Positions 9,164 through 58,990 of a stretch of DNA of 64,000 bases are shown in pieces. The translations under genes were made by a program, and so were the position numbers. Below the pieces are notes generated by a model, which saw only the letters and a program-made list of their open reading frames with translations, did no database searches and had not been told where the DNA came from. This DNA is from Symbiobacterium thermophilum IAM 14863. GTDB taxonomy: Bacteria; Bacillota; Sulfobacillia; Symbiobacteriales; Symbiobacteriaceae. The stretch spans positions 682,001 through 746,000 of the forward strand of contig NC_006177.1 in the NCBI RefSeq assembly GCF_000009905.1. The letters run 5' to 3'. How positions within the stretch are numbered: position 1 is the first letter of the stretch; each line of letters opens with the position of its first letter.

Positions 9164-9415
9164 GTGGGTACGCGGCAGAGACGGCCGGGAACCGGCACGC
9201 GGCGGCTGCGCCGCGGCCGGCCGTGGATGCGCGGCCGCGGGCGCAGGCGGACCGGCTGGCTGGCGGCGCTTGTGGGCCGGCTCCGCCGACGGTGGCGGTC
9301 CTTCTGGCACTGGGAGGTGCTGCACGCGCTCCGGGAGCGGTACCCGCAACTGTCCCGCACCCGCACGCTGAGCCCCGGGGAGCTGCGCCGGTTTCCGCAA
9401 CGTACGTGGCCGTAA
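9164..9415 (+). CDS. Small Arg-rich hypothetical protein
   Basis: 83 residues from GTG 9164 with GGGGGGAG about 10 nt upstream, ending just before a strong terminator. The N-terminal half is extremely basic (RRLRRGRPWMRGRGRRR). The C-terminal part WHWEVLHALRERYPQLSRTR looks like an amphipathic helix. I recognise no family. The ribosome binding site and terminator support a real gene; low-complexity Arg content in GC-rich DNA argues for caution. Confidence 0.45.
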   Translation: MGTRQRRPGTGTRRLRRGRPWMRGRGRRRTGWLAALVGRLRRRWRSFWHWEVLHALRERYPQLSRTRTLSPGELRRFPQRTWP

Positions 9416-39693: not shown

Positions 39694-39897
39694 GGCATCG
39701 TCGCCGGTGAGGAAGTGGCCGCCGGCGTTGGCGGAAGGAGAGTTGGACTTGGTTGCGGTATCGATGAAAATGGGAGCAGGGTGAGTTGCCGTCGACGGGG
39801 CATTTCGGTTGATCTGGCGGTTGTTTCGAGTTTGCTGAATCGATACTAGAACCCCGTTTTCTCGAAAGGAGCCTTGTCTCGTGCGGGTTTCGTTAGT
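39694..39897 (+). promoter_or_regulatory. CRISPR leader
   Basis: About 200 nt, AT-richer than its surroundings, before the first repeat. The repeat orientation (I-E form, ending GAACCG) and the degenerate repeats at the other end both place the leader here. A core around 39832-39854, TGAATCGATACTAGAACCCC, recurs after cas6e at 56514-56532. GATACT (39842-39847) could serve as a -10. Confidence 0.7.
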
Positions 39898-41646
39898 GTC
39901 GTCCCCACGCGCGTGGGGGTGAACCGACGTCTTCTGACGACACTGAGTCACTCCGTAGCGTCGTCCCCACGCGCGTGGGGGTGAACCGTATGAAGTTAGA
40001 GGCTCACCTGCGGCCGAAGCCGTCGTCCCCACGCGCGTGGGGGTGAACCGGAGCACCCCCAGCAGCGCGTTCCACCCCCCGAAGTCGTCCCCACGCGCGT
40101 GGGGGTGAACCGCGAGAAGTAGTCCCATCCACTCCGCCGCATCTGTCGTCCCCACGCGCGTGGGGGTGAACCGTATGAAGTTAGAGGCTCACCTGCGGCC
40201 GAAGCCGTCGTCCCCACGCGCGTGGGGGTGAACCGGAGCACCCCCAGCAGCGCGTTCCACCCCCCGAAGTCGTCCCCACGCGCGTGGGGGTGAACCGCGA
40301 GAAGTAGTCCCATCCACTCCGCCGCATCTGTCGTCCCCACGCGCGTGGGGGTGAACCGGAGGAAGCTTCAGTCTTGGAAACAGGAGTTGCGTCGTCCCCA
40401 CGCGCGTGGGGGTGAACCGTTGCGGGTACAAACGATGGTTCCGCCGTCGAAGTCGTCCCCACGCGCGTGGGGGTGAACCGATTCATCCTATGTCCCAGAC
40501 TTATAACGAAGAAGTCGTCCCCACGCGCGTGGGGGTGAACCGGAGTTCAAGATCGTCTCTGCCAACACTGATGTGTCGTCCCCACGCGCGTGGGGGTGAA
40601 CCAGCTTGTTCTGCGGTTCATGTAGCGGTTGACACGTCGTCCCCACGCGCGTGGGGGTGAACCGTCCCGACCGGCCGCAACCGCCGGAGCGTCTGGACGT
40701 CGTCCCCACGCGCGTGGGGGTGAACCGCGATGCACGAACCGCGGATGCGGGTGCTCTCCCGTCGTCCCCACGCGCGTGGGGGTGAACCGAAGTGGCCTGG
40801 GACAATATTAGGCGGGCCGCAGTCGTCCCCACGCGCGTGGGGGTGAACCGAGGCGGGCCACCTCCAGGATGGCCTCCACCGGGTCGTCCCCACGCGCGTG
40901 GGGGTGAACCGTAAAGCCGCTTCGGGCGGGCAGGGGGGACATGCGTCGTCCCCACGCGCGTGGGGGTGAACCGATGTACGGACTGCATGGACGCAAACGG
41001 ACTGCGTCGTCCCCACGCGCGTGGGGGTGAACCGACCCAATTCGCTACATTTCCCATTTTGCAGTAGTCGTCCCCACGCGCGTGGGGGTGAACCGTAGTC
41101 AATGGGCATAGTGCAAACGTCAGTAGTGGTCGTCCCCACGCGCGTGGGGGTGAACCGTGGCCTGCCTTGGAATCGGGGAGGAGAGAGATGTCGTCCCCAC
41201 GCGCGTGGGGGTGAACCGGGCGGATAAAGGGGGGGTTAGTCGCCCAGCGCGTCGTCCCCACGCGCGTGGGGGTGAACCGTCCTCGCCCGCGGTCGTCAAC
41301 TCCTCGGCCCAGTCGTCCCCACGCGCGTGGGGGTGAACCGCAGCGGATGAGCAGGCGAAGCCAGCGGGGGACGTCGTCCCCACGCGCGTGGGGGTGAACC
41401 GGCGCGGCTTGAGGGCGAGGAAAAGGCCGGTAAAGTCGTCCCCACGCGCGTGGGGGTGAACCGAACGGCGAGTTGGCGCTAGCTGCGGTTGCGTAGTCGT
41501 CCCCACGCGCGTGGGGGTGAACCGCGTGTCGCGAATGCGAAGGCGCGGCTTGAGGGGTCGTCCCCACGCGCGTGGGGGTGAACCGTTATCGTTGCGGCGT
41601 CTAGCTCCTCCAGCACCGTCGTCCCCACGCGCGTGGGGGTGAACCG
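39898..41646 (+). CRISPR. Type I-E CRISPR array, leader-proximal segment (29 repeats)
   Basis: 29-nt repeats begin GTCGTCCC, contain the perfect palindrome CCCCACGCGCGTGGGG (Cas6e stem) and end TGAACCG. They alternate with 32-33-nt spacers at a 61-62-nt period. I count 29 repeats from 39898 to the one at 41618-41646. Three consecutive repeat-spacer units (from 39960) are exactly duplicated (from 40145). The next spacer (from 41647) is split by an insertion sequence and resumes at 43411. The repeat at about 40575 ends AACCA instead of AACCG. Frames across the array are artefacts of the repeat. Confidence 0.98.
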
Positions 41647-41669
41647 AAGCCAATTTGCGGCGCCCCTAG

Positions 41670-43406
41670 CTCAAGTTTCACGCGAACAACTCGACATTCG
41701 TGGTGTTAAAAGGGCGTATGGGTAGGGAGTGGCCCGGTTCAGGGTAATCTCAGCTCCAGCCAGGGGAGTACCCCGGCTGAACACCAACCGCAGCGTGTCG
41801 CCGAGGCACCGAATGGTTGCTCGGCACCGGGCCGCTACTCGTACCAAGAGTCGACTCCCCGCCTCGGCCAGTTTGGGCGAGTTCGTGCTCAGAAACCGCC
41901 AAGCCCAGCGCACCAGGTTGAAGGCGAACAAGACCAGCTGCGTGAAGGCGGCGTTGGCCTCATACTTCCGCATCCGAGGAGTACCAAAGTGGAACGTTCC
42001 CTTCCACTCCTGGAACCCGGCTTCGATGGTCTGCCGTCCATGGTAGAGCTTGACGACCTCTGTCGTGGTGAGCTCCTCAGGCTGGAGCGTAGTCAGGATG
42101 ACGCTGCGGACCTCCCGGCCATCGGCGTCCCAGCGGCGCATGGCGACCAGTCGCACCGGATACGGTGCGAGCAAAGTGGGGCCAGGTACGGTAACGGCTT
42201 CGGAGGCAAACCGGTTCTTCTCGACTTCAACCCAGTTCTCTGCCGGTACAGCGTCGAAGAGGTGCTTGTAGGCGACGTTGCTCCCGGAGTAGGACTTGAT
42301 GGTGAACTCATACCCCAGTTCCAGCAGGCGCTGGATCACTTCCGGCGTGCCAAAGGCGCTGTCAGCTCGCAGCAGAATACGGAGGGGAGCCGGGTTCGTC
42401 CGATTCTCCTGCCGGTACTGCCGGAGTCGCTGGTTCACTTCACGGAGGTGCTGAACCTCCTCCTGGAACTCACGCTGCAGCTTCTGCTTCCGGCGGGCGC
42501 TGCCCTTGCCTGATACCGTCTGCAGTTGCTGATACAGCTGCCTGACCCGAGCCTTCTGCTGAGCCAGGCATGCCTCGACCCATTCGACTCGCCGCAGGGG
42601 ACGACCAATCCGGGCTTCGATCCTGGGAATCAGTTCGAGCAGGCAGGCGCCGGAACGGCTGTTGGCCTTGCCGGACTTGAGAAGGCCGTCGATGGCAAAG
42701 CGCTGCTGCTTCCCGCTGAGGAAGGCGGCTGCGATCTGATAGCCTCGGGCCAACTTCCCCTGGATGTAGCCGAAGTCGGTACCGGTGTACTGCCTGGTCT
42801 CGCCCCGAACCTTCTGGCCGGTGAGGTCAATGTCGACGATGACCATTCCGGAGCGGTCTGGACCTGCTACGGCAGCCACCTCCTGCTGAAGCAGCGGGGC
42901 CTGGATCTCAGCGAGTGCGTCGGAAAGCTGCTGAACGTTCTCCTCCGTCAGCTTGCTGAAGGTCGCACAGACGGTGGAAAAGTGAGCAAAGCGTTCCTGC
43001 CCCCAGGCTTGAGCTACGGCAGGATCGGCAACCAGCGGCTCAGGGTCGAAGTTGAGATCCTTCATGTAGCGACAGTTGCCGAGAATGGCAACCAACGCCT
43101 CGACCACCTTGTCAACCGGCGTGTGGGCGTAGGTCTTCTGCTTGATGCGCAGGTGCCGATTCAGGATCTCAACCAGGTTGAGCCTTTGAGCTACCCAGCC
43201 AAGAGCGACGAGAAAACCATGTCGGGTGGTGGACTTGATGGCTTGCGCAGCGATGTTGGGTGTCGTACCATGAGACTGCATCAGTCGAACCTCCACATGG
43301 TGGATTGGGAGCGGCCACACTCCCACCATGTATCATTGGTTCTGACTGATGCTTTTTCAATGGGTTTCCATTGCACGAAGTCCGGGTTATTCACGCGAAA
43401 CTTGAG
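41670..43406 (-). mobile_element. IS4-superfamily insertion sequence inside a CRISPR spacer
   Basis: A 1,737-bp element. The ends are inverted repeats: CTCAAGTTTCACGCGAA at the left, and CTCAAGTTTCGCGTGAA read inward from the right. The target sequence CTAG is duplicated (41666-41669 and 43407-43410). Removing the element and one CTAG restores a 33-nt spacer, so insertion was clean. One transposase gene fills it, with its stop codon inside the left inverted repeat. Confidence 0.92.
41671..43281 (-). CDS. IS4-superfamily DDE transposase
   Basis: 536 residues from ATG 43281 with GGAGGT 8 nt upstream. The DDE residues are placed in VIVDIDLTGQKV (D), ILLRADSAFGTPE (D) and YHGRQTIEAGFQEWK (E). 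The last fits the IS4 signature Y-x2-R-x3-E-x6-K exactly. The length and motifs are closest to IS1380/IS1634-type members. The gene is intact, so the element may be active. It is transcribed opposite to the CRISPR array. Confidence 0.92.
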   Translation of the reverse strand: MQSHGTTPNIAAQAIKSTTRHGFLVALGWVAQRLNLVEILNRHLRIKQKTYAHTPVDKVVEALVAILGNCRYMKDLNFDPEPLVADPAVAQAWGQERFAHFSTVCATFSKLTEENVQQLSDALAEIQAPLLQQEVAAVAGPDRSGMVIVDIDLTGQKVRGETRQYTGTDFGYIQGKLARGYQIAAAFLSGKQQRFAIDGLLKSGKANSRSGACLLELIPRIEARIGRPLRRVEWVEACLAQQKARVRQLYQQLQTVSGKGSARRKQKLQREFQEEVQHLREVNQRLRQYRQENRTNPAPLRILLRADSAFGTPEVIQRLLELGYEFTIKSYSGSNVAYKHLFDAVPAENWVEVEKNRFASEAVTVPGPTLLAPYPVRLVAMRRWDADGREVRSVILTTLQPEELTTTEVVKLYHGRQTIEAGFQEWKGTFHFGTPRMRKYEANAAFTQLVLFAFNLVRWAWRFLSTNSPKLAEAGSRLLVRVAARCRATIRCLGDTLRLVFSRGTPLAGAEITLNRATPYPYALLTPRMSSCSRET

Positions 43407-43420
43407 CTAGCGCTTCGTCC

Positions 43421-46400
43421 GTCGTCCCCACGCGCGTGGGGGTGAACCGCTGTTCAAGCGTCGTAGTCGCAAACCGAAGGTGTCGTCCCCACGCGCGTGG
43501 GGGTGAACCGTCCAGGGCCCACCACCAGAGCAGGTGCAGGTGGGTCGTCCCCACGCGCGTGGGGGTGAACCGACGGCCGTTCGCAGGGCGGAGTCCGGTG
43601 CCATGTCGTCCCCACGCGCGTGGGGGTGAACCGTCGCCCCTGCAGCTCATCTACCTGCCCCGGGGGTCGTCCCCACGCGCGTGGGGGTGAACCGGAGGGG
43701 TGATCATGAACGAGGATGAACTGCGTGTCGTCCCCACGCGCGTGGGGGTGAACCGCGTTGCTTGCGTCGTCATACCGCTCAACAGTAGCGTCGTCCCCAC
43801 GCGCGTGGGGGTGAACCGTGAGGCTGCGTAGATGGTGCGTGCGGTGCGGAAGTCGTCCCCACGCGCGTGGGGGTGAACCGGCACCAGCGGAGGAGCCTCA
43901 CCGCCCCTCACCGTCGTCCCCACGCGCGTGGGGGTGAACCGAGGGGTTCACCGCCCTGGATGTGCTCCGGTCCGTCGTCCCCACGCGCGTGGGGGTGAAC
44001 CGGACGGTGGTCAGCCAACGATGACGGAGTGGGAGTCGTCCCCACGCGCGTGGGGGTGAACCGTGCTGAACGCTCGTCGGTTCTGCAACAACCTTCGTCG
44101 TCCCCACGCGCGTGGGGGTGAACCAGGGTATGGCACCGAACACCCACAAACGGGGTTCGTCGTCCCCACGCGCGTGGGGGTGAACCGCTGGACGGTATGC
44201 CCTGTCTTTGGCTCGTGAACGTCGTCCCCACGCGCGTGGGGGTGAACCGCGGTCAACAAGGGCAAGGCCTGGGTCCACCCGTCGTCCCCACGCGCGTGGG
44301 GGTGAACCGGTGGCGTCATCGAAGTTGATCACGTCCGCAGCGTGGTCCCCACGCGCGTGGGGGTGAACCGGAGTGCGAGAGACCATGACGCGACTTCTTT
44401 GCGTCGTCCCCACGCGCGTGGGGGTGAACCGCGCCAGGAACATGCCCCGGAGCGTCAGCCGGTGTCGTCCCCACGCGCGTGGGGGTGAACCGGTGTACTG
44501 CATCTACGTGGACGGCAATCTTCGGTCGTCCCCACGCGCGTGGGGGTGAACCGCACATCATCGGCCTCCTGGGCCACCCTGGACAGCGTCGTCCCCACGC
44601 GCGTGGGGGTGAACCGAACTCGCTCAGACAGTCGGTGCTGCACCAGTTGTCGTCCCCACGCGCGTGGGGGTGAACCGGACATTCTGGCACCGGGCGGTGT
44701 GGACCGGTCCGTCGTCCCCACGCGCGTGGGGGTGAACCGAAGCGCAAGGCGAGCCTTAAACGAGAGTTGTCGTCGTCCCCACGCGCGTGGGGGTGAACCG
44801 TCCGGCATCCCAGCCCGCCTGGAGTGGGTCGAGTCGTCCCCACGCGCGTGGGGGTGAACCGCTAGGGAGGTATCGCCATGAAGACGAAACGTCGTCGTCC
44901 CCACGCGCGTGGGGGTGAACCGTTCGAGAGGAGGGAGAGAATGGAGCGGCGCCAGTCGTCCCCACGCGCGTGGGGGTGAACCGTTGCGTAACGCCTACAA
45001 AGCTAGGGAGGTATCGTCGTCCCCACGCGCGTGGGGGTGAACCGCGATCCGTCAGACATGATCCAGTACCCCTGCGGTCGTCCCCACGCGCGTGGGGGTG
45101 AACCGCTCTTTCCGGTCAGGTCGTCCCCTACCTCGATGTCGTCCCCACGCGCGTGGGGGTGAACCGGCGTGATCCCCGGTCGCCACGGCGAACTCTGGGT
45201 CGTCCCCACGCGCGTGGGGGTGAACCGGAGGAGGGTTTCTCCGTGACCATCCTAGAGAAGTCGTCCCCACGCGCGTGGGGGTGAACCGTGCCTGCAGGTG
45301 CTGTTCAGCCTCCTGCTGGCGTCGTCCCCACGCGCGTGGGGGTGAACCGGCGAGACCATCTACCCATGGGAGGCCGGGCCCGTCGTCCCCACGCGCGTGG
45401 GGGTGAACCGTGCTCCAGGGCCTCGCCCATGGCCGACGCCGGCGTCGTCCCCACGCGCGTGGGGGTGAACCGAGCTGCTCAAAAGGAGGGAGAGTGCCAT
45501 GACGTCGTCCCCACGCGCGTGGGGGTGAACCACCAGCTGAGCCGCTTTAAGCATCGCTGTCGCCGTCGTCCCCACGCGCGTGGGGGTGAACCGTCCCTCA
45601 GCAGCTGACCTGCCAGGGCGTAAATGTCGTCCCCACGCGCGTGGGGGTGAACCGTCGCGGAGGCCGAACGCCGGCAGGCCGCCGGCGTCGTCCCCACGCG
45701 CGTGGGGGTGAACCGCACGTAGCAGGAGGCGAGATGAGAGCAGCCGTGGTCGTCCCCACGCGCGTGGGGGTGAACCGATCTCCAACCGTGAGGCGGCCGA
45801 ATGGATCAAGTCGTTCCCACGCGCGTGGGGGTGAACCGGCAACGTGCATCTGGCTACCAAGACCCTGGTCGTCGTCCCCACGCGCGTGGGGGTGAACCGC
45901 GGCGCCCGACCGGCGACATTCTCGTGCGACTGTCGTCCCCACGCGCGTGGGGGTGAACCGGAAACCTGCTGGTACATCACTTACACCTACCGGTCGTCCC
46001 CACGCGCGTGGGGGTGAACCGTCGTCCTGCCAGCCGCCCACCCACTTAATCCCGTCGTCCCCACGCGCGTGGGGGTGAACCGATGAAGCGTCGTCACATG
46101 AGAGTTCGTCCTGCGTCGTCCCCACGCGCGTGGGGGTGAACCGTCCGCCCGGGCCACCGTGAACGGCAACAGCCTCCGTCGTCCCCACGCGCGTGGGGGT
46201 GAACCGATGAGCAGGGTCCCGTCCAGCTCAGCCGCTACGTCGTCCCCACGCGCGTGGGGGTGAACCGTCGAGGAACAGAACCGGGCGGCCCAGAAGCTCG
46301 TCGTCCCCACGCGCGTGGGGGTGAACCGGTGACCAGCTACCTGTACCACCCACCCAAGCAGTCGTCCCCACGCGCGTGGGGGTGAACCGCGGGCCGCCAA

Positions 46401-46936
46401 GGAGGCGATCGAGGCCTCCCAGCGTCGTCCCCACGCGCGTGGGGGTGAACCGCGCCGCGAGCAGGCCATCATGACCCTCGCCGCGTCGTCCCCACGCGCG
46501 TGGGGGTGAACCGGCCCTGCCCAAGCACATCACGGCCGAGCGCCGTCGTCCCCACGCGCGTGGGGGTGAACCGATAAGGGTCTTCACCGGATGACACCTC
46601 CGGAACGTCGTCCCCACGCGCGTGGGGGTGAACCGCTGCCCCTCCCTGATGATCCGGCCGGGGGCCCGTCGTCCCCACGCGCGTGGGGGTGAACCGGAGG
46701 CGGCGCAGAATATCGCTTACGGCGCTGTCGTCCCCACGCGCGTGGGGGTGAACCGGGCCCGAGCGGCCTTGTCCACGCCCTGCAGGCGTCGTCCCCACGC
46801 GCGTGGGGGTGAACCGGACGCTGCCAGCATCCAGCAGTTGGGCTGCCAGTCGTCCCCACGCGCGTGGGGGTGAACCGTCGGGAATTACCGTGCTCTACAC
46901 GGCGCAGGAGTCGTCCCCACGCGCGTGGGGGCACGC
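43421..46936 (+). CRISPR. Type I-E CRISPR array, leader-distal segment (58 repeats)
   Basis: A continuation of the array after the IS, with the same 29-nt repeat and 61-62-nt period. I count 58 repeats from 43421 to the one at 46910, which loses the TGAACCG end and marks the distal end. Repeats near 44097 and 45504 end AACCA. A few carry single changes (GTGGTCC at about 44342, GTCGTTCC at about 45810). Spacers at 44862-44893 and 44984-45015 overlap by 13 nt of target. With the first segment this makes about 87 repeats, a very large array for one locus. Confidence 0.98.
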
Positions 46937-47370
46937 CCAAAGATCATCATGGGTTCGTCGACCTCATCTTGTCTCCCAGGCAGGTGGGGACATACCGTTC
47001 GGCGATTACTGGGTTAAGCCGGTGAGCCAGTCGTGCACACTGCCAAGGCTGGTCGAAGGGTCACGTAGTCCAGCTAGTTAGATTTCCCACCTTGGATCTT
47101 GGTCTAGATAGCGTACAGACGGGTCATTAGTGTACTTCCCCCGCCAGCCCCTGTGGACAGCGCTGTGTCTGCCACGGGGTTTACCGGGGGAAGCCTCGTT
47201 CGAGCCTTCCTGGTTGAGCTACAATACCCTGATCCGATGCCTTGACCCATGCGAGTTGGTTGGGAAGGCGCGTCCTGCCTTATTATCCGGTTGGTCCCGT
47301 CGCGCGACCTGGTGCTCGTGAACTCTGCGGTTCCGCTTCATAGTGCTGCCGGTGTGGAAGATCAGCTTGC
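46937..47370 (+). repeat. Array trailer with degenerate repeats; otherwise no gene
   Basis: Exactly 61 nt after the last repeat, 46971-46997 reads GTCTCCCAGGCAGGTGGGGA followed by CATACCG, an eroded repeat. Another may start at 47030 (GTCGTGCAC). Beyond that I see no gene or signal up to the cas promoter. Confidence 0.6.
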
Positions 47371-47443
47371 CGCCATACTCGCGCTAGGCAAACACCGAAA
47401 CACTTTCAGAACCGTTGACAACACACTCGCCTCATATTATTCT
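47371..47443 (+). promoter_or_regulatory. Probable cas operon promoter with guide-RNA target site
   Basis: TTGACA (47415-47420), 17 nt, TATTCT (47438-47443) is a good sigma-A-type promoter; transcription should start near 47450. Just upstream, the minus strand reads AAG (47405-47403) followed by TGTTTCGG (47402-47395). That is a I-E PAM plus a perfect match to the first 8 nt of the degenerate-array spacer at 47493. The full 32-nt pseudo-protospacer spans 47371-47402 and abuts the -35 region, so Cascade bound here should hinder RNA polymerase. Confidence 0.7.
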
Positions 47444-47462
47444 GACTAAGTGAGAAATACTA

Positions 47463-47554
47463 CCTTTCCCCATGCTCCGTGGGGCTGGCCCGTGTTTCGG
47501 CGTCTGTCGTCCGAGCGGAACAGGCAGGTCTCCACGCACGTGGAGGGTAGAACG
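47463..47554 (+). ncRNA. Degenerate mini-CRISPR (CreR-like guide RNA candidate) in the cas leader
   Basis: Two eroded repeats at 47463-47492 and 47525-47554 are 62 nt apart and flank a 32-nt spacer (47493-47524), the same geometry as the main array. Repeat 1 keeps CCCCA-N7-TGGGG and ends GGCCCG. Repeat 2 keeps CTCCACGCACGTGGAG, in which a C:G stem pair has become T:A on both arms, so pairing is preserved. The spacer starts TGTTTCGGCGTCTGTC and matches the promoter-upstream site in 13 of the first 16 positions, including positions 1-8, next to AAG. Mismatches fall at 9, 12 and 15; position 12 is one that Cascade flips out. Processing by Cas6e and autorepression of the operon are inferred. Confidence 0.75.
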
Positions 47555-47577
47555 AAACTTGAAAGGAGGCGAGCTCT

Positions 47578-47751
47578 TTGGCCGAGGAGGTCGTACTGGA
47601 GGTGGCACGGCGGATGTACGCCCAGGCCGAACTCCATTCAGATGGCACCAGGGTGTTCCGCGGGTCACCTCGATCCCTCATGGAGCAGCTTGGCTCCAGC
47701 AGTGGCCGTGGTCCGAATGCAGAGTGGTTGGTTCCACCGTCGGTGCCCTAA
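47578..47751 (+). CDS. Small ORF in the cas leader, 57 residues
   Basis: It starts at TTG 47578 with AAAGGAGG about 8 nt upstream and ends at TAA 47751, 79 nt before cas1. The product reads LAEEVVLEVARRMYAQAEL, then HSDGTRVFRGSPRSLMEQLG and ends in NAEWLVPPSVP. I recognise no family; the middle faintly resembles a helix-turn-helix. It could be a regulator remnant, a toxin-like small protein as in CreTA modules, or non-coding. The ribosome binding site is the main support. Confidence 0.4.
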   Translation: MAEEVVLEVARRMYAQAELHSDGTRVFRGSPRSLMEQLGSSSGRGPNAEWLVPPSVP

Positions 47752-47830
47752 GAAACTCCGTTCCCTGGCGTGGCACTAAGTGGACGTCTGAGCTTGCCGT
47801 CTGCCACTTCGCACCTGTGGGGGGAACGCC

Positions 47831-48754
47831 GTGCGAAACCTGCGCATCCTGCCGAAGGTCAGGGACAGCTGGTCGTACTTGTACGTCGAACATGCCCGGA
47901 TCGACCAGGAGGACAAAGGCATCTGCATTCACGACGCCAAGGGCCGGGTACACGTGCCCTGCGCCTCCCTTAGTCTCCTCATGCTTGGCCCGGGCACCAG
48001 CGTGACCCACGCGGCCGTCATGGCCATGGTGGAGGCCGGCTGTCTGGTGGCGTGGTGCGGGGAGCAGGGGGTGCGGTTCTACGCCCAGGGGATGGGGGAG
48101 ACTCGGAGCGCGGTCAACCTCATGCAGCAGGCCAGGTTCTGGGCCGACCCGCAGCGCCGGATGCAGGTGGTACGGCGGATGTATGAGATGCGGTTCGGTG
48201 AGCCCCTGGATCCCTCGCTCAGCCTCCGTCAGATCCGGGGAAAGGAAGGGGCGCGCGTCCGGACGGCGTACGCCAGGGCCAGCGAGACCTACGGCGTGCC
48301 TTGGTCCGGACGCAACTACGACCGGAACGACTGGGACCGTTCGGATCCGGTGAACCGGGCGCTCTCGGCCGCTAACGCCTGCCTCTACGGGGTGTGTCAT
48401 GCGGCGATTGTGGCTGCAGGGTACTCCCCTGCCCTTGGCTTCATCCACACGGGCAAGATGCTGAGCTTTGTTTATGACGTGGCGGATCTGTACAAGACGG
48501 AAATTACGATTCCCGCCGCATTCATGGAGGTGGCCAAGGGCGTCCAGCGGCTGGAGAGCCGGGTGCGCCACCGCTGTCGCGACCTGTTTGCGGAAAGGCG
48601 GCTGCTGGAGCGAATCGTCACCGATCTGGCCCGCTTGTTCGATCTGGACCCTAATCCGGAACCGGAAGTGGATCTGGAGGTCGCACTGCCCGGCGACCTG
48701 TGGGATCCCGAGGGACCTGTGGCCGGTGGTCGAAACTTCGGGGGGCGGTCGTGA
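47831..48754 (+). CDS. cas1: CRISPR-associated endonuclease Cas1 (type I-E)
   Basis: 307 residues from GTG 47831 with GGGGGGAA 6 nt upstream. It is the metal-dependent integrase that, with Cas2, inserts new spacers at the leader end of the array. Cas1e motifs are Glu in [39 protein letters not shown], His in [21 protein letters not shown] and the following Asp. It is the first gene of the operon here, whereas cas1-cas2 usually come last in I-E loci. Its stop overlaps the start of the cas2-cas3 gene (TGATG), so integrase and fused partner are co-translated. Confidence 0.96.
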
Positions 48755-51700
48755 TGGTAGTCCTGATTGTGGAGTCCGCCCCGCCCGGCCTGCGGGGGGA
48801 GCTGTCTAAATGGATGCTGGAACCCCGGGCGGGGGTCTTCGTCGGCAGCGTATCCGCGGCCGTTCGGGACCTGCTCTGGGAAAAGGCCTGCCAGGAAGTC
48901 GGCGACGGCGGTTGCATCATGATCTACCGAACCAACAACGAGCAGGGCTTCGCCGTTCGCACCTGGGGCGACACCACCCGGGAGGTGGAGGACTGGGAGG
49001 GGCTGTTTCTCGTCCGGCGGCCCGATCGCCCGTCCGACAATCCCCATATGTCGTTTACCCCCCCGCAGGATTGGAACGACTACCTCCATCCGGAGATCTG
49101 GGCCAAGACTGCCCGCGGCGTTGAACTCGCGGAAGGGGAGGGTCACTATCATCCCCTCTGTTGCCACATGATCGACACTGCCATGGTGGCCTGGCGCATG
49201 TGGCGGTATGTGCTTCCCCAGCGCCTGCGCGACCAGATCCGCCGCCAACTGGGGCTACAGACCGATGACGAGGCTGGCCGCTGGATCGCATTCTTCGCCG
49301 GACTGCACGATCTGGGCAAGGCCACGCCCGCCTTTGCCAAGCAGTGGCCGGAGGGATGGCGGCTGCTCACGGAACAGAAATACGGGGCAGCCTCCGGTTC
49401 GGAATCCAAGCCCCATTACGTCCTTACCACTTTCCTGTTGGAGTCGCTGCTGGAGGAGCTGGGGCTGCCCGGTGCCGTGGCGGTGCCGGTAGCCGCTGTG
49501 ATTGGCGCGCACCATGGCCTGTTCCCCACCGCCACTGATCTGCGACATGCAGAACGCTATGCGGGCAAGGCAAAGTGGCAGGAGGCGCAGGCCCACCTGG
49601 TCCGGCTGCTGGCCCACGTGTTGGGCGTCGATCGGCTGAACGTCCCGACGGGTGATCTGTGGCAGGCCAACAGCCTGTTGGTGATCCTGGCGGGCCTCAC
49701 CAGTGTCGCAGACTGGATCGCGTCCAACCACACCTACTTCCCCTTTGCCGGCGACCGGGTACGCCTTCCCTCCTACGCCCGGCAGGCCCGCTGGCGGGCC
49801 TGGATGGCCCTTCACCAGTTGGGTTGGTTCCATCGGCCGGTCGCAATGGCGCCGCGATCCTTTACCGAACTCTTCGACAAGGTGCCTAACCACCTGCAGA
49901 AACAGGTGTTGGCGATTGCAGATCGTCTCAGCGGCCCCAGCCTGGTCCTGCTGGAGTATCCGATGGGCGGCGGGAAGACCGAGGCGGCCCTGTATCTGGC
50001 CGATTCCCTCGCCGTTGCCGCGGGCCAGAAGGGGCTCTACTTTGCCCTGCCCACCATGGCCACCAGCAACCAGATGTTCGGCCGCGTCAACCGCTATCTG
50101 GTCAACCGCTTCCCCGGCAGCCGCATCAACGTGCAGCTCCTGCATGGCCATGCGTCCCTCAACGCCGAGTTTGAGCTGCTGCGCGCAGCCCACCTTCAGG
50201 AACTGGAACGAAGGAGGGCAGGGCGGGAACAGGAGCTGGCGGCGGTCGGCGAATCCACTGCCGCGACCGTGCTGGCGGCAGAGTGGTTCACCTACAAGAA
50301 GCGAGGCCTGCTCGCCCCTTATGGCATCGGTACCATCGACCAGGCCTTGCTGTCGGTGCTGCAGACGAAGCATTTCTTCGTCCGCCTGTTTGGACTGGCG
50401 GGTAAGGTCGTGATCCTGGACGAGGTACACGCCTATGACACCTACATGCAGACTTTGCTGACCCGGCTGCTCACCTGGCTGGCTGCCTGCGGTACCTCGG
50501 TGGTCCTGCTCTCCGCGACCTTGCCCGCGCACACCCGCAAGGCGCTGGTGGCGGCTTACGCAGCAGGCCGAGGGCTGCCTGCACCTGCCGAGCCGGAAGT
50601 CACGTACCCCCGTGTCACCTGGCTGACCGATATGGAATCGAATGCGGTTCACATCGAGGGAGCTGCAACTCGCACCATCACCCTGCGCCGTTACGCCCAG
50701 GATGACGAGGGCTGGATGCGGGCCTTGCAGGAAGCGCTGGTGGATGGGGGCTGCGCGGCGGTCATCGTCAACACCGTCAGCCGCGCCCAGGCCGTGTACC
50801 AGAAGCTGCAGGACTACTTCCCTCCAGAGGAGCTGTGTCTCTTCCATGCCCGCTATCCCTTCGATGATCGGATGGCCCGGGAACGGGAGGTTCTGACCCG
50901 GTTCGGGCCGGGCATCGCGGACCGGCCCCGGCGTGCGGTCCTGGTGGCCACGCAGGTAGTCGAACAGTCCCTGGATCTGGACTTCGACCTGCTGGTGACC
51001 GATCTGGCCCCGGTGGACCTGGTCTTCCAACGCAGCGGCCGGCTCTGGCGGCACCGCCGGGAGTGGCGTCCCCCAGGGTTCACCGAACCCACCCTGTGGT
51101 TGCTCATGCCGCCGCTGGACGAGCAGGGTGTTCCCCAGTTCGAGCGCGGCTCCCGCCTCATCTACGACCACCACACCATGCTGCGGAGCTGGCTGGTGTT
51201 GGCGCAGCAGGATCACCTCTGCATCCCCGATCAGCTGGAGCCCATGGTGGAAGCGGTCTACCGGCCCGCTGACCCTCCGGAGGAGCTGCCGGAGCCGCTG
51301 CGGGCGCTATGGCTCCAGACCCGGGCTGTACTGGAAGCGGAGCAAGCCCGAGACCAGCAGGAGGCGCGGCGGCGGTACATTCCCGACGTGCACCAGAACC
51401 TGCTGGAGATGGTCCTGACGGATCTGGAAGAGGAAGGCGAGAGCCACCCCGCGGTGCAGGCGCTTACCCGGCTCGGCGGGATTGCGGTGACCGCCGTCTG
51501 CCTGGTCGAGGCCGATGGCCGGTTGTGGGCGCCGGGTCCCGAGCCAAGGGAGATCCATCTCCAGAGACGCCCCGACAAGGAGGATGTCCGGGCCCTGCTT
51601 GGGCGTGCGATCGCCATCAGCTTCGATCCCGGGCTGGCCCGGCAGATCCTGGCTCTGGATCCGCCGGAGGTCTGGGAAGGTTCCGCCTACCTCCGCCGGT

Positions 51701-51858
51701 GCCGGCTCCTGACGTTCGACCCGGCGGGCAACTGCCTCACGGCCGGGTTGCCTTTGCGCCTGGACCCCGAACTGGGGCTCTTGAAGATCCCTGGCGGAGA
51801 GGAGGAGGAAGAGGAGTGCCGCGATTTTCCCTCTGGGAAGACCCGTGGATCCCGGTGA
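48754..51858 (+). CDS. Fused Cas2-Cas3 protein of a type I-E system
   Basis: A 1,034-residue single ORF. Residues 1-90 are a full Cas2e domain (VVLIVESAPPGLRGELSKWM, EPRAGVFVGSVSAAVRDLLWEK, MIYRTNNEQGFAVRTWG), joined by about 15 residues to a complete Cas3. The HD nuclease (about 105-330) has HMIDTA, GLHDLGKA (His185-Asp186) and IGAHHG. The SF2 helicase has Walker A MGGGKT (404-409), DEVH (556-559), SAT (587-589) and TQVVEQSLDLDFDLLVTDLAP. Cas3 degrades DNA bound by Cascade; Cas2 scaffolds spacer integration. No separate cas2 or cas3 exists in this locus. A Cas2-Cas3 fusion is standard in type I-F but unusual in I-E. The 3' end overlaps cas8e by 43 nt. Confidence 0.95.
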   Translation: MVVLIVESAPPGLRGELSKWMLEPRAGVFVGSVSAAVRDLLWEKACQEVGDGGCIMIYRTNNEQGFAVRTWGDTTREVEDWEGLFLVRRPDRPSDNPHMSFTPPQDWNDYLHPEIWAKTARGVELAEGEGHYHPLCCHMIDTAMVAWRMWRYVLPQRLRDQIRRQLGLQTDDEAGRWIAFFAGLHDLGKATPAFAKQWPEGWRLLTEQKYGAASGSESKPHYVLTTFLLESLLEELGLPGAVAVPVAAVIGAHHGLFPTATDLRHAERYAGKAKWQEAQAHLVRLLAHVLGVDRLNVPTGDLWQANSLLVILAGLTSVADWIASNHTYFPFAGDRVRLPSYARQARWRAWMALHQLGWFHRPVAMAPRSFTELFDKVPNHLQKQVLAIADRLSGPSLVLLEYPMGGGKTEAALYLADSLAVAAGQKGLYFALPTMATSNQMFGRVNRYLVNRFPGSRINVQLLHGHASLNAEFELLRAAHLQELERRRAGREQELAAVGESTAATVLAAEWFTYKKRGLLAPYGIGTIDQALLSVLQTKHFFVRLFGLAGKVVILDEVHAYDTYMQTLLTRLLTWLAACGTSVVLLSATLPAHTRKALVAAYAAGRGLPAPAEPEVTYPRVTWLTDMESNAVHIEGAATRTITLRRYAQDDEGWMRALQEALVDGGCAAVIVNTVSRAQAVYQKLQDYFPPEELCLFHARYPFDDRMAREREVLTRFGPGIADRPRRAVLVATQVVEQSLDLDFDLLVTDLAPVDLVFQRSGRLWRHRREWRPPGFTEPTLWLLMPPLDEQGVPQFERGSRLIYDHHTMLRSWLVLAQQDHLCIPDQLEPMVEAVYRPADPPEELPEPLRALWLQTRAVLEAEQARDQQEARRRYIPDVHQNLLEMVLTDLEEEGESHPAVQALTRLGGIAVTAVCLVEADGRLWAPGPEPREIHLQRRPDKEDVRALLGRAIAISFDPGLARQILALDPPEVWEGSAYLRRCRLLTFDPAGNCLTAGLPLRLDPELGLLKIPGGEEEEEECRDFPSGKTRGSR

Positions 51859-55820: not shown

Positions 55821-55832
55821 GAGGTGGAGCGA

Positions 55833-56507
55833 GTGTATCTTTCTCTCTTACGCCTGAACCCAGCTTCGGCGGCAGTACAGCGCGACCTCCGGGACGTGCA
55901 GGCGCTGCACCAGCGGGTGATGTCGGCCTTTCCCGATGTGCTGGATCCTGAGGTGGAGGCCCGGGCGTACTTCGGGGTTCTGTACCGGCTGGAGCTGAAC
56001 CGGTACAGCGGGCAGGTCCTCCTCTATGTGCAGTCGCGGGTGGAGCCCGACTGGGGGCGGCTCCCTGCCGGTTACTTGACCCCGGCTGATGGATTGCCCA
56101 ATCCTGCGGTCAAGCGGGTGGATGAGGCTTATGCCCGTATCCGGGAGGGGCGAGTGCTCCGATTCCGGTTGCGGGCGAACCCGACGCGCAAGATCGACAC
56201 GAAGTCGGGGCCGAATGGGGAGAAGCGTAACGGCCGGCGCGTGCCGCTGTCCGGGTTGGACGCGCAGCTCGGGTGGATGGAGAGGAAGGCCCGGGAGCAT
56301 GGCTTCGAACTCCTGGAGGCGACGGTGGCCGCCGCCGGGGCCAGTGAACGGGTGCGGAGCTACACCACCGGGCGTACCTTCCAGGGCGTGTTGTTCGAGG
56401 GCCGCCTGGTGGTACGGGATGCGGGGAGGTTCCGGGAGGCGCTGGAACGGGGAATCGGTCCGGGAAAGGCGTACGGCTACGGCCTGTTGTCGGTGGGGCC
56501 GGGTTAG
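55833..56507 (+). CDS. cas6e: crRNA endoribonuclease Cas6e/CasE
   Basis: 224 residues from GTG 55833 (GGAGGTGGAG 7 nt upstream; GTG 55824 lies inside that site). It cleaves repeats at the base of the CCCCAC/GTGGGG stem and stays bound to the 3' handle. The N-terminus MYLSLLRLNP and a His at residue 26 (DVQALHQRVMSAFP), equivalent to the catalytic His20 of the E. coli enzyme, are present. The Gly-rich C-terminus GIGPGKAYGYGLLSVGPG is typical. It is the last gene of the operon. Confidence 0.95.
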   Translation: MYLSLLRLNPASAAVQRDLRDVQALHQRVMSAFPDVLDPEVEARAYFGVLYRLELNRYSGQVLLYVQSRVEPDWGRLPAGYLTPADGLPNPAVKRVDEAYARIREGRVLRFRLRANPTRKIDTKSGPNGEKRNGRRVPLSGLDAQLGWMERKAREHGFELLEATVAAAGASERVRSYTTGRTFQGVLFEGRLVVRDAGRFREALERGIGPGKAYGYGLLSVGPG

Positions 56508-56510
56508 TGG

Positions 56511-56612
56511 TTGTTGAAACGATACTAAAACCCCCCTGCGCCTGGGTCGACCCAGGCGCAGTCGGGTTGAAGACAAAATCCGGGTAACCCCTCGCGGGTG
56601 CCCGGATTTTGT
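56511..56612 (+). promoter_or_regulatory. Leader-like motif and two terminator hairpins after cas6e
   Basis: Just past cas6e, GTTGTTGAAACGATACTAAA and ACCCC (56511-56532) match the core of the CRISPR leader at 39820-39854. A 26-bp perfect palindrome follows (arm CTGCGCCTGGGTC, 56536-56548), then a second long hairpin ACAAAATCCGGG (56573-56584) with CCCGGATTTTGT (56601-56612). The first hairpin probably ends the cas transcript; the second may belong to the IS end. No repeat follows. Confidence 0.55.
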
Positions 56613-56643
56613 TGTACAATGGCAACATAAGCAGTATCTGGCG

Positions 56644-57752
56644 GTGGTGAATGCGGTGCTTCGGGAACATGGACATGCTCAGCGCAAGTATGAGCTCGTG
56701 CTGATCGAAGACTTGGTGCCCCAAGATCATTTGCTCCGGAAGATCCAAGCGATACTTGATACTGACTTCATCCGGGAACGCACGGCCAGGTTCTACAGCG
56801 ACCGGGGGCGACCGGCCATCGATCCAGTAGTGCTGGTGAAGATGGAGCTCATCGCATACCTCTTCGGCATCCGATCGGATCGGCGATTGGTCGAGGAGAT
56901 CCGGGTCAACGTCGCCTACCGCTGGTTCTTGGGGTTGGGGCTTACCGATCCGGTCCCGCACTTCACCACGCCAGGTAAGAACTACAGCCGTCGGTGGAAG
57001 GACTCCGGCCTGTTTGAGGAACTGTTCGACCATGTCGTCAAGCAGGCCATTGATGCCGGATACATCGATGGTCGCATGATCTTCACCGATTCCAGCCACC
57101 TGAAGGCAAACGCCAACAAGCGTCGGATTGCCAAAGAAGGTACGAAAGGCGTTACCCTGGAGGACATCGCCAGAGCCCGGGAACGGCACCTGGCGGCTCG
57201 TCGGGCCGAACGGGAAGAGTGTGCGGCAAATGATGATACGGAGGATGGCTTACTGGCCGCAGTGAACGCTGACCGCGAGGCCCACGGGCTGAAGCCCTTG
57301 CCCGAACGCAAAGAAGACCCGCAGCCGGATCTGTCGGTTGACGAGATGACGGTCAGCCTGACGGACCCGGAAGCGGCGATGCTTCGCCGTGAGGGGAAGC
57401 CTGACGGGTTTCACTACCTGCAGCACCGCACCGTCGATGGTCGCCACGGCTTCATCCTCGACGTGCTCGTCACGTCGGCGGCGATGACCGACGCCCAGGT
57501 TTACCCCACGTGCCTTTCCCGTGTTGACCGGCACGGGCTGAAGGTCGAGAAGGTTGGAGTCGATGCCGGGTACAACACCTTGGAGGTTCTGCACCTGCTG
57601 TCCAAGCGAGGGATTCAGGCTGCGGTAGCGCATCGCCGTCACCCTTCGCCCAAGGAACTGATGGGCAAGTAGCGCTTCAAGTATGACGCTTCACGGGATG
57701 CCTACCGCTGCCCGGCCAAGCAGTGGCTGACGTACGTCACCACCAACCGTGA
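56644..57752 (+). pseudogene. IS1182/IS5-type transposase, stop-interrupted and truncated
   Basis: The frame from GTG 56644 reads as an IS1182-type transposase: KYELVLIEDLVPQDHLLRKI, FYSDRGRPAIDPVVLVKMEL, catalytic-region MIFTDSSHLKANANKRR, LDVLVTSAAMTDAQV and VGVDAGYNTLEVLHLL. An in-frame TAG at 57670-57672 is followed by continued homology in the same frame (RFKYDASRDAYRCPAKQWLT, YVTTNRDG) until about 57752. There it meets the end of a permease gene fragment on the other strand. The C-terminal part and right inverted repeat are missing, so the copy is dead. Confidence 0.85.
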
Positions 57753-58535
57753 CGGCCACCGAGTCCTCCGACCAGGTAGCCGAAGGCGGCGCTCATCCAG
57801 AAGCCCAGCACCGACGTGCCGAGGGCTGCGGCCAGCTGCGGCAGGGTGACATCCCACAACGCCCATGCGGCCAGCAGGGCGCACAGGGTCAGTGCCATGC
57901 CGAGGATCAGCCGTGCGGGCACCTGGGCAAGCACGAAGGTCAGCCGGGTGACGGGAGTGGTGCGCATGAGGCGGAGGATACCTTGCTGGCGCATGGCGAT
58001 GATGGGCATAGCCACGCCGAACAGGCCCAGGGAGGCCAGCGCGTAGACGAGGGCGCCCACCATGCCGTAGCGCAGGGGATCTGCGAAGAAGTCACCGCTG
58101 TCGCTGACGGAGAGGGCGCGGATTCCGGCCGCACGTGCAGCCTCTTCCAGGGCCACCTTGATCGCACGCACGCGGACGTCGCTGCCCACGGGCGTCTCGA
58201 TGACGACGCTGCCAGATGGTGGACGGCAGAAAGACCAGGGCTTCGAACTCGCTGCTTGCCTTGCGACGCATTCCTTCGCCCGCGTCGACCAGTTCAAATG
58301 TGACATTCTGGAGACCTTGAAGTTCCGCTGCCAGGGCGTGTACGGCCTGGGTGGCATCGGCCGGGAGAACGAGTGTGATGAGCCCGTCTTCCTCGTTCAT
58401 CAGGAACGCGATAAATGGGAACACGAGCATGAGAAGCAACGGGGGAACGAAGATGTAGATCATCATCTTGAAATCCCGAAGCAACTCACGCCAGTTGGCC
58501 AGTGCGAGTTGACAAAAGGCTTGCGTGTTGAACAT
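57753..58535 (-). pseudogene. ABC-2 permease, frameshifted and truncated by the IS junction
   Basis: The N-terminal part, from ATG 58535 (FKMMIYIFVPPLLLMLVFPFIAFL, then FELVDAGEGMRRKASSEFEA), breaks frame near 58210. It continues in another frame (SVVIETPVGSDVRVRAIKVA, YGMVGALVYALASLGLFGVA, RTTPVTRLTFVLAQVPARLI, AAALGTSVLGFWMSAAFGYL). The last membrane helix is cut at about 57755-57770 by the transposase remnant. No function can remain. Confidence 0.8.
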
Positions 58536-58990
58536 ATGGCCTCATTCCGCGCCTGTGCCCTCCGCACAAACAGGCGGAACAGGTCCTGCAGCGTGGTCGG
58601 ATCGGTGGGGGAGTTCCTCGCCGTCCGATACAGCGCGGGATCTATGCGGTGCCGGAGCGTCTCACCGCGATGGGCGGTGTGCGCCCGCATGACCTACCGG
58701 CCTGCGGATGGCGTCCCGCAAGCCGCTGCGCCTGCTCTCCCAGCCCGGCCTTTGACTGCGGATGGCCATACGGTTGGCCGCTTCGGTCGGCTGGGTGTGG
58801 GGATCGAGCGCGAAAAACCAACGGTCCACATTCCTCACGGTGCGGCTCAGGCCGACAGCCGTACCCACAGAGTCCAGGCCTGCCTGATCCCGTTCGATGT
58901 TCTCCGCCAGGGCGAATGCGACAGTATAACCACTCAAGAGTCATAATTCGGCTTTTCGGTCGCCCCTCCTTTCTCCCTGGCTTCCGGTGC
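58536..58990. other. 455-bp decayed region, no intact gene
   Basis: On the minus strand, TDPTTLQDLFRLF (about 58570-58610) resembles the C-terminus of an ABC ATPase placed, as expected, just upstream of the permease remnant. Reading frames are broken, and I cannot assign the rest. Confidence 0.35.

Follow-up and report, generated by a model that had tools for sequence, protein, structure and literature searches.

The window analysed here is a 64,000-nt stretch of the Symbiobacterium thermophilum IAM 14863 genome (positions 682001–746000 of 3,566,135 bp). It contains a type I-E CRISPR–Cas locus in the order leader, array, cas1e, fused cas2–cas3, cse1, cse2, cas7, cas5 and cas6e, with the array and all cas genes on the + strand. 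NCBIfam type I-E models matched above cut-off for cas1e, cas2e, cse1, cse2, cas7, cas5e and cas6e, and cas3 exceeded the cut-offs of its core and HD models; in the fused protein, the Cas3 HD domain spans residues 134–347 and the helicase core residues 416–790. This is the S. thermophilum 'Ecoli subtype' locus described previously with 86 repeats, a number also counted here, and with flanking transposons; the accessible part of that account mentions neither a second leader nor a lost array (PMC2612747). The features are as follows.

39832–39855, + strand: matching element within the intact leader, with GATACT starting 56 bp upstream of repeat 1
39856–39897, + strand: junction-proximal part of the intact leader, ending TGCGGGTTTCGTTAGT; missing after cas6e
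39898–46938, + strand: type I-E CRISPR array, 86 repeats at ≤3 mismatches and, at 46910, a degenerate final one
47831–48754, + strand: cas1e (TIGR03638, 412.8 bits, above cut-off)
48700–51858, + strand: cas2–cas3, a single fused open frame (residues 19–104 match TIGR01873 and PF09707)
55824–56507, + strand: cas6e, last gene of the operon (TIGR01907, 83.3 bits, above cut-off)
56511–56534, + strand: probable relic of a type I-E CRISPR leader (its upstream half), core CGATACTAAAACCCC; 21 of 24 positions as in the array leader
56536–56561, no strand assigned: perfect 26-bp palindrome with a predicted fold
56562–57771, + strand: IS1182-family element without its right end, with an in-frame TAG at about 57670
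57772–58357, − strand: ABC-2 permease fragment, its C-terminal end cut by the IS junction (PF12698, profile positions 161–264 of 347)

Several observations concern the array itself. An insertion sequence splits it at about 41647–43420 (transposase frame 41671–43329; best match to the IS1380 family, below the curated cut-off at 123.7 versus 180 bits). Near the leader end, a 185-bp block of three repeat–spacer units is tandemly duplicated without a mismatch (39960–40329). Between the array and cas1 (46910–47830) there are hairpins resembling degenerate repeats, for example at 46969 and 47525, with 17 of 29 matches, barely above the coding background.

The sequence TTGYTGAAWCGATACTARAACCCC has two copies in the 3.57-Mb genome, both on the + strand and identical at 21 of 24 positions: TTGCTGAATCGATACTAGAACCCC at 39832–39855, in the array leader, and TTGTTGAAACGATACTAAAACCCC at 56511–56534, separated by 3 nt from the cas6e stop codon (56505–56507). 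The initial annotation had noted a string common to the array leader and the DNA after cas6e in the same orientation. This is borne out, over a block limited to 24 bp and ending at 56534; the first GTTG that it had cited, at 39820, does not line up with its counterpart at 56510. The motif was absent from 100 shuffles of the window. The annotation had named a motif common in intergenic regions genome-wide as what would refute its reading; this one is not common, with no third copy in the 3,566,135 bp at ≤3 mismatches.

After cas6e, only the upstream half of the leader is kept; its junction-proximal 42 bp are missing, as is every repeat. The junction-proximal part has a single copy in the genome at ≤2 mismatches. 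As the annotation had stated, no repeat follows the motif: none was found at 56535–58800, all 86 canonical repeats (≤3 mismatches) are confined to the one array from 39898, and no remnant of a repeat or spacer survives behind the motif. The segment matches the array leader of the same genome in sequence, and its position is homologous to that of array leaders in relatives, but, unlike a type I-E leader, it has no first repeat downstream on its strand. Because no repeat follows, we class 56511–56534 as a relic rather than a leader.

We compared the region downstream of cas6e in ten other loci with a Cas6e relative; within the family (five genomes, own included), no matching cas6e was found besides that of S. 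thermophilum itself. An array lies directly 3′ of cas6e in four of the ten: L007 (MAG ZCTH02-B6), G056, G006 and G076. Those of L007 and G056 are real type I-E arrays, and their Cas6e proteins share 73% and 66% identity, respectively, with that of the window. A tree of nine Cas6e rows places the window, L007 and G056 together in a clade with support 95/99; G076 and G083, being distant or partial, were omitted from it. In L007, the cas6e stop codon is followed by a short gap, CGATACTAAAA, more leader, the junction-proximal block TGCGGGTTTCGTTAGT and the repeats, and the last 16 nt of this leader are identical to those of the window's array. The distance from the cas6e stop to the start of GATAC is 9 nt in L007, 11 nt in G056 and 13 nt in the window. 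Because the motif thus occupies the position of a leader in both L007 and G056, an array has most likely been lost here. The comparison with relatives proposed in the initial annotation therefore supports its suggestion of a lost second array: an array after cas6e would be the parsimonious ancestral state of the window–L007–G056 clade, lost in the window. Against this reading stand the lack of any repeat or spacer remnant behind the motif, the relatives in which cas1 directly follows cas6e (G089, G071, G009 and G083; four of the ten), a two-repeat mini-array followed by cas1 in G092, the contig end after cas6e in G005, and the leader of G076, which lacks the element (4 of 6 positions).

Two of these loci show further peculiarities. 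The mini-array of G092 (L046, reverse strand, oriented 9215–9320) is separate from the main array and holds one spacer, for which no convincing target was found on its contig; it may be either a remnant or a regulator resembling a crRNA. L007 shows a change within its post-cas6e array (L007:10704–11242): the seven leader-proximal repeats have the 3′ part GTGGGACATGTGG instead of GTGGGGGTGGACCG, which the two oldest repeats retain, and the unit in which the change appears measures 52 bp, the others 60–61. This looks like a repeat mutation that was copied on through later spacer acquisition.

Immediately behind the relic lie the palindrome and the IS1182-family element, whose transposase matches NF033551 (301 versus a cut-off of 270 bits). 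Four other near-identical copies of the element are present in the genome; these are longer and free of stops, and have G at position 57671 where the window copy has A. Similarity ends at about 57771. The description of a dead IS1182-like element in the initial annotation is apt for this copy, which is truncated and nonsense-mutated, but not for the longer stop-free copies elsewhere. A palindrome, perfect or nearly so, immediately precedes each of the five copies, as if the element targeted terminator hairpins. Because each of the other copies stands behind a different palindrome, the one at 56536–56561 probably belongs to the host as a hairpin, presumably a terminator stem, which the IS used as its target. 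The possibility that it is a degenerate repeat or another part of an array was rejected: different palindromes lie on the same side of all the other IS copies, and its neighbourhood matches the repeat at just 16 of 29 positions, like many coding stretches. The annotation had further proposed that the array was replaced by hairpins and the IS; both are present, but we read them as later and separate events, with an IS1182-family copy arriving next to a palindrome and then losing its right side. The strong fold behind the relic (z −6.5) is due to the palindrome together with a hairpin of the IS itself, which is found in all five copies. On the right side, the permease lacks its C-terminal part where the similarity between the IS copies ends, pointing to a deletion there too. 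Apart from one short, weak match in the same genome, the right flank has no other copy in the five family genomes (own included).

Together, we read the motif as the remaining upstream half of a leader that once belonged to a second type I-E array. In this reading, to which we assign a probability of roughly 0.8, the array was removed by deletion, and an IS insertion and another deletion followed. The first deletion would have taken all the repeats together with about 42 bp of leader, its junction-proximal half, and would at the same time have brought the palindromic hairpin next to the leader stump. Next, the IS1182-family element would have landed 3′ of the hairpin before losing its right end, together with the end of the ABC permease gene, in the second deletion. 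Array loss, between 56534 and the palindrome, would thus have been distinct from the IS insertion and probably have preceded it. The homology and the absence of the array are established, and the order of the deletions is our inference.

The kept portion of the leader includes an element at a nearly constant distance from the first repeat. GATAC(T/C) starts at −57 in L007, −56 in G056, −57 in G006 and −56 in the window's intact leader. We aligned nine leaders at the first repeat, omitting arrays with other repeat types and the first array of L007, whose leader is off the contig. GANACT stands at −56 or −57 in five of the nine and has one mismatch in two (G041 and G056), whereas the remaining two (G092 and G076) agree at only 4 of 6 positions. 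A full match at two given offsets has a chance of about 0.0016 per leader, but the leaders are related and the pattern was picked with the sequences already in view; we treat the figure as an indication and not as a test. Across the phylum (398 genomes, G006 not among them), GATACT at the right distance before TCGTCCCCAC was found only in the window. We suggest that the element, 56–57 bp upstream of the first repeat in the intact leaders of the clade, may serve as a docking site for the Cas1–Cas2 integrase and may help it to locate the leader–repeat junction.

Could the match have arisen in another way? Simple-sequence runs such as AACCCC contribute to the alignment, as would suit a chance similarity, but when 3,772 background segments of 60 bp, taken from both strands of the window, were compared with the 120-bp leader, no 24-mer matched at more than 18 positions, against 21 here, and the genome yields just two matches at ≤3 mismatches. 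These counts, together with the homologous position, refute chance, to which we give next to no weight. A viral origin was likewise discarded. Viral contigs contain the 14-base core in 83 stretches, yet at the 80 loci examined it is neither extended by TTGYTGAA nor followed by a type I-E-like repeat; one contig (L130) holds three copies of the core that, by eye, look like a coding repeat. We read the viral matches as chance. A fragment copied from the array leader by a small duplication or gene conversion, in a lineage that never had an array at this site, has more in its favour: the 8 bp (TTGYTGAA) upstream of CGATACT are common to both window copies and absent from the post-cas6e leader of L007. 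Because the 24-bp block is extended in the manner of the window's own leader and not that of L007, we retain a copied fragment as a candidate, although an unlikely one. The segment lies exactly where both sister loci carry an array with its leader, and its core CGATACTAAAA agrees with L007 at 11 of 11 positions but with the window's own leader at 10 of 11.

A motif that works where it stands, as a promoter, operator, integrase docking site or decoy at the 3′ end of the cas operon, would account for a core left intact after array loss and could draw on the strong fold behind the segment. That fold, however, is explained by the palindrome and the hairpin of the IS. Moreover, no sigma-70-type promoter was found near the motif after cas6e or in the leader, and in seven leaders the element matches a −10 box at only 2–4 of 6 positions, with poor −35 boxes. 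We therefore set the promoter aside, keeping it as a minor rival, and because the distance to the repeat is fixed and the −10 and −35 matches are poor, we prefer a ruler for the integrase. Function in place is, overall, improbable. There is a very slim chance that, in this host with no IHF-alpha above the model cut-off, the GANACT element at about −57 is a stand-alone docking site for a Cas1–Cas2/Cas3 fusion complex and that the orphan stump still binds this complex, acting as a decoy or as the seed of a new array.

The lost-array reading can be set beside known systems. The type I-E CRISPR leader of E. coli contains an upstream element that anchors the integrase. As in that leader, according to the accessible part of its description (PMC7465815), a conserved block lies upstream of repeat 1 at a fixed distance from the junction; the relic differs in consisting of the upstream block alone, without junction or repeat, and in a genome in which no IHF-alpha exceeded the model cut-off (one HU-like match fell below it in this search for IHF-alpha). 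In Synechococcus OS-B′, one lone Type III (Ecoli subtype) repeat in the syntenic position is described as a solitary remnant in the part of the source available (PMC2612747). Both cases are syntenic traces left by a type I-E locus that was lost, but there a repeat survives, whereas here what survives is leader sequence, alongside a cas operon and another array that are still in place. Although subscription papers are incompletely covered, our literature search found no account of a leader relic after cas6e. In kind, the stump is an ordinary relic of a known type.

The same clade shares a second feature. Fusions of Cas2 and Cas3 are typical of type I-F systems. Here, Cas2e and Cas3 form a single open frame in three related type I-E loci: the window, L007 (2845–5931) and G056 (L045, 11556–14606). 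Among 16 other loci scored, the genes are fused in two (L007 and G056), separate in ten and, in four, one or both matches are missing; where both genes are readable, no locus beyond these three has the fusion. No type I-E Cas2–Cas3 fusion was found in titles or the beginnings of abstracts, with subscription papers incompletely covered.

These observations indicate that a leader segment can persist after the array behind it has disappeared. Such segments offer a way to find lost arrays, and they show which portion of a leader can be recognised on its own. The relatives also reveal a leader element at a fixed spacing (56–57 bp) in type I-E systems of a lineage in which the one genome searched has no IHF-alpha above cut-off. 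The more general leads are this element and the Cas2–Cas3 fusion in the same type I-E clade, and the fusion may interest specialists more than the relic.
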